The notes below the pieces were generated by a model that worked only from the letters and a program-made list of their open reading frames with translations, was not told where the DNA came from and searched no databases. Positions 15,371-16,855 of a stretch of 64,000 nucleotides of DNA are shown here, one piece after another. This DNA is from Alistipes sp. Marseille-P5061 (GTDB taxonomy: Bacteria > Bacteroidota > Bacteroidia > Bacteroidales > Rikenellaceae): assembly GCF_900290115.1 (NCBI RefSeq), contig NZ_LT985750.1, positions 290,949-354,948 of the forward strand, in the 5' to 3' direction. Every line of letters starts with the position of its first letter. The first letter of the stretch is position 1. The translations under genes were made by a program, and so were the position numbers.

Positions 15371-15667
15371 ATGGCAAAAGAATCGATGAAGGCACGCGAG
15401 GTAAAGCGTGCAAAGCTCGCGAAGCGTTATCAGCACAAGCGCGAGGAGATTGCTGCCAAGGTGAAGAGCGGCGAGATGGACCACGAGGAGGCATGGGTAG
15501 CCCTTTCGAAGCTGCCGCGCAACTCGAACCCCATCCGTCAGCACAACCGCTGCAAGATTACGGGACGTCCGAAGGGCTATATCCGTCAGTTCGGTATCAG
15601 CCGTATCCAGTTCCGTGAGATGGCTTCGCAGGGGTTGATTCCCGGCGTGAAGAAGGCCAGCTGGTAG
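15371..15667 (+). CDS. rpsN: 30S ribosomal protein S14, zinc-independent form
   Basis: S14 is a late-assembling 30S head protein. The chain is 98 residues, the longer form that lacks the paired CxxC motifs of the zinc type. The diagnostic C-terminal block [17 protein letters not shown] is present with only one Cys. It is normally followed at once by rpsH, but here a perfect hairpin begins four bases after its stop codon and rpsH lies 789 bp away. Confidence 0.97.
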
Positions 15668-15670
15668 TCG

Positions 15671-15702
15671 ATTTACGGGTGCGATGCGTCGCACCCGTAA
15701 AT
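15671..15702. terminator. Perfect 14-bp hairpin after rpsN
   Basis: ATTTACGGGTGCGA (15671-15684) pairs perfectly with TCGCACCCGTAAAT (15689-15702) around a TGCG loop. It begins four bases after the rpsN stop. There is no U-tract beyond the stem, so it may be a partial terminator, an RNA-processing site or a 3'-end stabiliser. Confidence 0.65.
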
Positions 15703-16169
15703 TCACTTCCGATTCACGGGAGGGGGAGAAGGAGGTGCCGAAGGGGAGTCTGAGGAGGAACCGAAGGGGGAATCGAAAGAGGAGCCTGAGGAGGAGCCGA
15801 AGAGGTACCGAAAGCATCGGAAATCATCTTCCCGTCGAGTCGAGGGGTTCCGTTCTCCGGGGTGCAAGCCCAGGAGCATCGCATCAGGAGGCGTCGCCCG
15901 TTGGGGCGCGTCTGCTCGCCGCATGCTCGCAGAGTCGGAACCCGATAGGGGCGCAGAGCCCGAGTAAGGAGGTCGCAAAATCGGGGAAAGTGCCGCCACA
16001 AGCGGTAACTTCTCGATGGCGTGACACCCGAAAAGGTTAGGCGTTTTGTTACGGATTTCCCGGACCGGTGTCGCCCGAGAGACGCCGTTGCCGCTACCCT
16101 GCAGGGGGCGCGACGGTCGTTTCGGAGGGTGGAACCGAGGTCGCACAGGGCGGAAATCGGTACGGAGAC

Positions 16170-16195
16170 ATGTTAGCAGCCAAGGGTGCTAACAT
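16170..16195. repeat. 9-bp palindrome in the rpsN-rpsH insert
   Basis: ATGTTAGCA (16170-16178) and TGCTAACAT (16187-16195) are perfect inverted repeats around an 8-nt loop. No T-tract follows, so it is not an obvious intrinsic terminator. It could be a protein-binding site or an RNA stem. Confidence 0.6.
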
Positions 16196-16269
16196 TGTCC
16201 GTATTGCGGAATCTGCATCGCGGGCCTCAAAATTAAGGTTAAATGCATGGTTTATCGGGAAATAATACG

Positions 16270-16277
16270 TATATTTG
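16270..16277 (+). promoter_or_regulatory. -7 box for the rpsH-proximal genes
   Basis: TATATTTG matches TAnnTTTG exactly. A start just downstream would give a 5' UTR of roughly 170 nt before rpsH, long enough for regulatory structure. It suggests that rpsH onward can be transcribed independently of rpsL-rpsN. Confidence 0.6.
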
Positions 16278-16456
16278 CGCGCTTAAACTCTGGGTTGGGC
16301 GTCGCATGTGCGTGTGAAAACCGCCTCCGCGGACCGCTCCCGGAACGGCAAAAAGGAAAACTCAACGGATGGCCGCTCGGACGACCGAATGGCGTAAACC
16401 GATGATTTTGAATAAATTATTTACTAACAAACTTTAATTTTTAACTTCTATTCGTT

Positions 16457-16855
16457 ATGACTGATCCTATTGCGGACTTTCTGACCAGAATTAGAAACGC
16501 GGTGAAAGCCAACCACAAGGTGGTTGAAGCTCCCGGTTCAAAAATTAAGCAGGAGATTACGAAGATTCTCTACGAGCAGGGTTACATCCTCGCCTACAAG
16601 TTCGACACGAACGAGAAGGGCCACCCGACCATCAAGATTGCCCTGAAGTGGGATGCCGCCACGAAGAGCAACGCCATCAAGGGGCTGCAGCGCATCAGCC
16701 GTCCGGGTCTGCGCCGCTACGCTTCGGTATCGGAGATGCCGCGCGTGCTCAACGGTCTGGGTATCGCCATCCTCTCGACCTCGAAGGGCATCATGACCGA
16801 CGCCAAGGCCCGCAAGGAGAACGTAGGCGGTGAGGTTCTGTGCTACATCTACTAA
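16457..16855 (+). CDS. rpsH: 30S ribosomal protein S8
   Basis: S8 binds the central 16S domain and is the translational repressor of the spc operon in E. coli. The 132-residue chain begins [16 protein letters not shown] and ends with the [20 protein letters not shown] block. First gene after the insert, with its own candidate promoter and a long leader that could carry an S8 autoregulation site (inference). Confidence 0.98.

Follow-up and report, generated by a model that had tools for sequence, protein, structure and literature searches.

The S10-spc operon has one of the best-conserved gene orders in bacteria, and within it rpsN and rpsH, encoding ribosomal proteins S14 and S8, respectively, are neighbours in most species. 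To our knowledge, the feedback control of this operon is largely undescribed outside a few model organisms. Among the structured RNAs of Bacteroidales, the Bacteroidales-1 RNA (RF01693) adjoins the gene for ribosomal protein L20 and is regarded as noncoding. In E. coli, S8 represses the spc operon via an RNA site that copies its 16S rRNA site (PMC4176348). Natural S8 sites contain a seven-nucleotide loop with the base triples A595-(A596-U644) and (G597-C643)-U641 and an invariant A642, and S8 also binds an aptamer with a non-natural symmetric internal loop (PMC4176348). None of 20 published novel r-leaders lies on rpsN or rpsH (PMC7247131). The main text of a 2021 survey of human-microbiome RNAs includes an Alistipes candidate, HMP2_39, upstream of the ribosomal-protein gene for L20, and names no candidate at rpsN or rpsH; an uncharacterised listing in its supplement is possible (PMC8040213). 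Our literature search found no description of an RNA between rpsN and rpsH in Bacteroidota.

We analysed a window of 64,000 nt from Alistipes sp. Marseille-P5061, in which rpsN (stop at 15667) and rpsH (start at 16457) lie on the forward strand, separated by exactly the 789 nt given in a sequence-only reading of this DNA (Table 1). That reading regarded the conserved operon as split here by structured non-coding DNA. The gap is real but not special in itself, because the two genes remain adjacent and wide gaps with the same type of promoter are common in Bacteroidota. The structure was confirmed: the fold of the whole gap beat 20 of 20 shuffles (z −4.8), and no long conserved reading frame was found in it. 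With the rpsN protein as tblastn query, rpsN was recovered in relatives, and the spacers of arm-bearing relatives measured 433–1342 nt. When 180 genomes of the genus were searched at the DNA level, three conserved blocks emerged, namely the rpsN end, the region at about 15931–16084 (72–91% identity in many species) and the rpsH leader. In an alignment of 33 sequences, the arm, the palindrome, the promoter and the leader end were conserved, whereas the first 170 nt, including the purine repeats, were not.

Table 1. Features of the rpsN-rpsH region, numbered from the first letter of the window
Feature	Position	Strand	Basis or remark
rpsN (S14)	15371..15667	+	98-aa ORF, TAG stop 15665-15667; last gene of the operon's upstream part
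Perfect hairpin just after rpsN	15670..15703 (15670-15684/15689-15703)	+	15 bp, −23.8 kcal/mol, z −5.3
Purine-rich tandem repeats, 12-nt spacing	15718..15805	+	Species-specific length filler, unconserved in relatives (33-sequence alignment)
Domain I: a GGGT-GCAA-GCCC hairpin and a variable one, enclosed by the closing stem GGGTTCCG/CGGAACCC	15845..15943	+	Fold z −3.2
Conserved arm	15945..16050	+	66-sequence covariation, repeated independent pair exchanges, optimal fold of this genome's sequence
Helix PE of the arm	15950-15960/16035-16045	+	
Lower stem of the arm	15971-15976/16021-16026	+	
Stem of the arm	15980-15987/16010-16017	+	
Apical stem of the arm	15991-15996/16002-16007	+	
Near-invariant internal loop AAG (15988-15990)/AC (16008-16009)	within 15986..16011	+	66-sequence comparison
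Long stem with conserved ATGTTAGC/GCTAACAT palindrome	16160..16205	+	−23.7 kcal/mol, z −5.5
Promoter of the rpsH unit: −33 region ATGG, −7 box TATATTTG (16270-16277)	16247..16277	+	Read from sequence; TAnnTTTG box in relatives
Predicted rpsH leader, ~170 nt, ending in conserved TTTTAACTTCTATTCGTT	16285..16456	+	Start inferred from the −7 box
rpsH (S8)	16457..16855	+	132-aa ORF; opens the downstream transcription unit

The central feature is a single nested arm. In the optimal fold of 15945–16050, its outermost pair is 15948-16047 and its innermost pair 15996/16002. The compound hairpin read earlier at 15982–16030 is therefore real, but its extent is larger, since it forms part of this arm. Folded alone, the arm reached −40.5 kcal/mol (z −3.3) and beat 200 of 200 shuffles, whereas its reverse strand was not unusual (z −1.0). 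Similarly, the consensus folding energy was −29 on the sense strand versus −5 on the opposite strand. The sense strand is favoured because its frequent G-U pairs become A-C mismatches on the other strand. A pseudoknot that appeared in the first covariation pass was rejected, because once extended it turned out to be part of the nested helix PE.

Comparison of 66 distinct sequences supported this fold strongly. Of 30 arm pairs in four helices, 25 changed on both sides, and standard pairs occupied 88.2% of the cells, compared with 30.8–48.9% when the partners were slid by 1–3 columns. Doubly changed cells numbered 227 versus 74 in shuffles that ignore relatedness, and 0 of 500 shuffles reached as high. 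On a tree of the S14 and S8 proteins, a minimum count gave at least 116 Watson-Crick-to-Watson-Crick exchanges summed over the pairs, with up to 13 at a single pair; this total is approximate, many forks of the tree being unresolved. Even so read, the count is, in these sequences, far above the number expected from common descent by itself. Only 14 of the 30 pairs were contained in the covariance model used to fit the alignment, and helix PE and the lower stem were therefore not imposed by it. Together, the substitutions indicate that the shape of the RNA has been kept by evolution while its letters changed. Spacers of unrelated sequence without covarying stems in close relatives would have spoken against the earlier proposal of an undescribed structured RNA; the arm instead recurs in them with covariation.

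The novelty of the arm was addressed by searches for known families. Rfam 15 returned no family above its gathering cut-off in the 64-kb window, and permissive E-values applied to the gap and to the loci of 20 relatives yielded chance matches only. RF01693 gave no match in the whole genome at E values up to 1. RNase P and SRP RNA were both located elsewhere in the genome, so the arm is neither of these, and rRNA mimicry was discarded after BLAST against the genome's own rRNA operon gave only chance matches of at most 13 nt. With covariation in 66 relatives and no Rfam match, the proposal of an undescribed structured RNA is upheld.

Within the arm, some letters were kept beyond what pairing demands. 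The AAG/AC loop letters were identical across the alignments, except that G15990 became A in a few sequences, and the flanking pairs A-U 15987-16010, U-A 15991-16007 and G.U 15992-16006 were identical in all 66. Recognition sites typically show near-invariant loop letters of this sort inside a covarying stem, and the loop region at 15986–16011 is most likely the part of the arm that a partner would recognise.

The 96-nt sense-strand arm (15950–16045) was present in 79 Alistipes-group genomes, all of one genus. A covariance model of the core matched 81 of 268 genomes of the taxonomic family; two of these matches, in G191 (another genus) and G009, were rejected as weak and situated elsewhere than at the rpsN-rpsH junction, leaving 79. 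Among genomes at least 90% complete, the element occurred in 50 of 71, and all 51 matches in such genomes lay 222–780 nt upstream of rpsH on the same strand. At further loci, rpsN preceded and rpsH followed the element in 36 of 36 cases. No match was found in 392 other genomes of the order Bacteroidales or in the phages, plasmids and viral contigs searched, and the element was never away from rpsN-rpsH in any genome tested. The 21 genomes at least 90% complete without a match included 6 that also lacked an rpsH match, which are probably assembly gaps. The element was thus undetected in 15 of the 65 rpsH-bearing genomes of this completeness, so its function is dispensable or replaceable. Where rpsH was found without the element, the gap was often shorter (mostly 228–375 nt, up to 1201 nt), and most such gaps carried a TAnnTTTG box. 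Presence and absence changed at least 4 times on the S14 and S8 tree, versus 18 times for shuffled labels; this agrees with acquisition by the group's ancestor and a few later losses, on a tree whose deep forks are unresolved.

The arm is the only part common to every element-bearing species. In two loci (L166:844-991 and L168:693-841), which represent the minimal natural element, it lies directly behind rpsN, beginning about 20 nt after the stop codon, and is followed by a T run. Several Alistipes-group metagenome-assembled genomes showed other arrangements. In L018 and L019, rpsN was not found upstream of rpsH and the spc operon is broken at rpsN-rpsH; in L019, rpsH stands behind genes resembling rpoC, xerD and recO, names that come from reading the translations only. 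In L020, the rpsN-rpsH gap holds a reverse-strand gene of 221 aa whose translation, the sole basis for this description, resembles a membrane protein.

The −7 box that the sequence-only reading placed at 16270 is present, and a TAnnTTTG box occurred in 66 of 66 element-bearing spacers versus 13 expected from mononucleotide shuffles. All spacers with the element had the box on the downstream side of the arm, and about 5 of 70 had one on the upstream side. The arm precedes the predicted rpsH promoter in every spacer and lies neither in the rpsH leader nor at a ribosome-binding site. The last 60–70 nt of the leader and the start of rpsH were 90–100% identical in many relatives. Across Bacteroidota (loci L013–L082), 46 of 76 element-free rpsN-rpsH gaps carried the same box, so the internal rpsH promoter looks ordinary for the phylum and the RNA is the addition. 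These gaps suggest that a widespread internal promoter parts rpsH and the later genes from the S10-spc transcript in Bacteroidota, and the split at rpsN-rpsH is, judging from the genomes compared, mostly a Bacteroidota trait.

Because the promoter box follows the arm in all spacers and hardly ever precedes it, the upstream S10-spc transcript probably has the arm RNA at its 3' end. No promoter was visible before the arm, which is thus most simply made by transcription from rpsN; the two minimal loci leave no room for a promoter or terminator between the rpsN stop and the arm. In several clades a strong terminator-like hairpin followed by a T run stands between rpsN and the arm, so read-through into the arm would be partial there.

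The remaining features of the spacer are less general. The hairpin right after rpsN is perfect, as the earlier reading had it, with 15 bp instead of 14. It has no T run here; in some relatives a hairpin and a T run behind rpsN resemble an intrinsic terminator, and in a strict scan 8 of 66 spacers had terminator-like sites ahead of the arm. The purine-rich repeats, also described before, are present as 12-nt-spaced copies at 15718–15805. Domain I occurred in many relatives but not in all and was missing in L166 and L168. Equivalents of its closing stem in relatives scored 17.2 versus 15.2 for shuffles, so this stem may, with moderate confidence, be regarded as real in many sequences, though neither universal nor a feature of the family. 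The palindrome noticed at 16170–16195 is real and sits within the longer stem at 16160–16205. The TGTTRG...CYRACA repeat was found in 43 of 66 spacers, terminator-like sites between the arm and the promoter in 35 of 66, and a T run at this stem only in some species. Either the upstream RNA probably ends at this terminator-like stem, or the stem is a DNA repeat of the operator type. Since the letters of the ATGTTAGC...GCTAACAT repeat are conserved as well as its pairing, it could serve a dimeric regulator as an operator in the DNA, either in place of an RNA stem or in addition to one.

The gap holds a new lineage-specific structured RNA, and we propose, with a probability of about 0.45, that its arm serves as a protein-binding feedback element acting in cis at the 3' end of the upstream unit. 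The Alistipes group would have gained this RNA at the border of two S10-spc transcription units. The upstream unit, ending in rplE-rpsN, would be read through the arm, its transcript would end near the 16160–16205 stem, and rpsH would then open a new unit from its own −33/−7 promoter. A ribosomal protein in excess would bind the AAG/AC loop in cis, and the bound protein would shorten or destabilise the upstream message, so that both halves of the split operon would stay in step. Against this proposal weigh the imperfect match to the S8 site, the terminator-like hairpins ahead of the arm in several clades, the position outside the rpsH leader and the 15 of 65 genomes in which the element was undetected. 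Read-through transcripts into rpsH could still contain the arm.

S8, encoded just downstream, is the first candidate ligand. We took its recognition loop as 595-597/641-644 closed by 598-640, which is our own reading of the site; at this loop, the genome's own 16S rRNA reads AAGT/ATACT. The 5' side of the site (A595-A596-G597, closed by U598-A640) is reproduced in the arm by AAG at 15988–15990, with G changed to A in a few sequences, and by the pair U15991-A16007 in 66 of 66. The 3' side (N641-A642-C643-U644) is not: the arm reads A-A-C-U (16007–16010), carrying A642-, C643- and U644-like letters with an extra A and the 641 position missing. Moreover, covariation at 15984-16013 fixes the register in which U16010 pairs with A15987. 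The match is imperfect because U641 is missing and U16010 is engaged in this pair. By sequence comparison, the arm fails as a standard S8 site but comes close to the S8 recognition loop, of which it lacks one of seven positions. With this loop, and with its place upstream of the rpsH promoter, the attenuator-like switch with S8 feedback suggested by the sequence-only reading is no more than a possibility. This mismatch is not fatal, since S8 can bind a non-natural symmetric loop. Overall, we consider it rather doubtful that S8 is the ligand of the arm.

The main rival to a feedback element is a trans-acting noncoding RNA of about 350–500 nt, cut from the ribosomal operon or started inside it, whose level would follow ribosome synthesis and which would act elsewhere, for example as a 6S-like polymerase RNA, an RNA sponge or a ribosome-associated RNA. 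This alternative, which we hold to be possible though less likely than our proposal, would account for the complex conserved fold with loop letters kept beyond pairing, the extra structured domains on both sides of the arm and the location downstream of a terminator-like hairpin in several clades. In addition, no 6S RNA was recognised in the genome with RF00013, RF01685 or RF01693, and the arm has a stem-bubble-stem outline. RF00013 and RF01685 also fail on the one Bacteroides control, so the lack of a match carries little weight, and the 6S RNA of this genome has either diverged beyond the models in Alistipes or is unannotated. However, an RNA acting elsewhere is not easily reconciled with an element never away from rpsN-rpsH in the genomes tested, lacking a promoter of the usual type in front and flanked by variable domains that are absent from L166 and L168. 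It is likewise only a tentative thought that an RNA confined to this genus, several hundred nucleotides long and made within a ribosomal-protein operon, with a level tracking ribosome synthesis, might constitute a new functional class, either a trans-acting RNA coupled to the ribosome or a sensor of ribosomal protein, located at a 3' end, that ties together the halves of a split operon.

Alternatively, the arm might do no more than mark a boundary: as a strong hairpin, it would terminate transcription or shield the upstream message at its 3' end, and would prevent that message from extending into the rpsH unit. Its position exactly between two units, the frequency of hairpins and terminator-like sites in the gap, the T run behind the arm in the two minimal loci and the other hairpins carried there by relatives without the arm would all agree with such a role. 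Nevertheless, a plain terminator or stabiliser needs neither a near-invariant AAG/AC loop nor an invariant G.U pair, and the T run follows the arm in few species only, which makes this simpler function unlikely.

A small-molecule riboswitch or another two-fold cis-switch would require an alternative structure, and the 5' strand of PE can form a local hairpin (15949-15951/15959-15961) that competes with PE. Its pairing was retained in 86% of cells, and in 10 sequences an A-U pair stood in place of G-C. However, this hairpin has only 3 pairs, of which 1 was doubly changed, and does no better there than shuffles; moreover, the RNA is outside any leader and no metabolic gene is nearby, so that a switch seems very improbable. 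The scar of an insertion, a decayed gene or a mobile element, as the earlier reading had also suggested, is hardly credible: although the element is found in one genus only, and at the corresponding position sister lineages have the operon broken (L018 and L019) or a gene on the reverse strand (L020), substitutions that preserve the structure occur across the genus and contradict it, the searches of mobile sequences and for a long conserved reading frame gave nothing, and the element was inherited at one place with its folded core kept.

The feedback element at the 3' end of the upstream unit is our preferred reading, and the arm RNA probably helps to balance ribosomal-protein production. In a common genus of the human gut, a well-supported fold that falls precisely where two transcription units part provides a testable candidate for the balancing of ribosomal proteins in Bacteroidota, and the arm can be converted straight away into a new RNA family for annotation.

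Compared with known systems, the arm shares with 6S RNA (RF00013 and RF01685) a long imperfect hairpin with a large internal bubble, whereas its conserved letters are in the apical stem and a promoter mimic was not identified in it. Like the Bacteroidales-1 RNA, it is a structured RNA of Bacteroidales, but it has no recognisable promoter of its own and occupies a different locus. The closest likeness is to the r-leaders, including the S8/spc site of E. coli: it is a covarying structured RNA tied to a ribosomal-protein operon, its loop resembles the S8 loop of 16S helix 21, and S8 is encoded next door. Unlike them, it lies outside the 5' leader of the regulated transcript and away from the start codon, upstream of the promoter at the 3' end of the preceding unit, and it lacks U641. 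On these comparisons, we class the arm RNA as a new family of lineage-specific structured RNA, unusually placed at the border of two transcription units.
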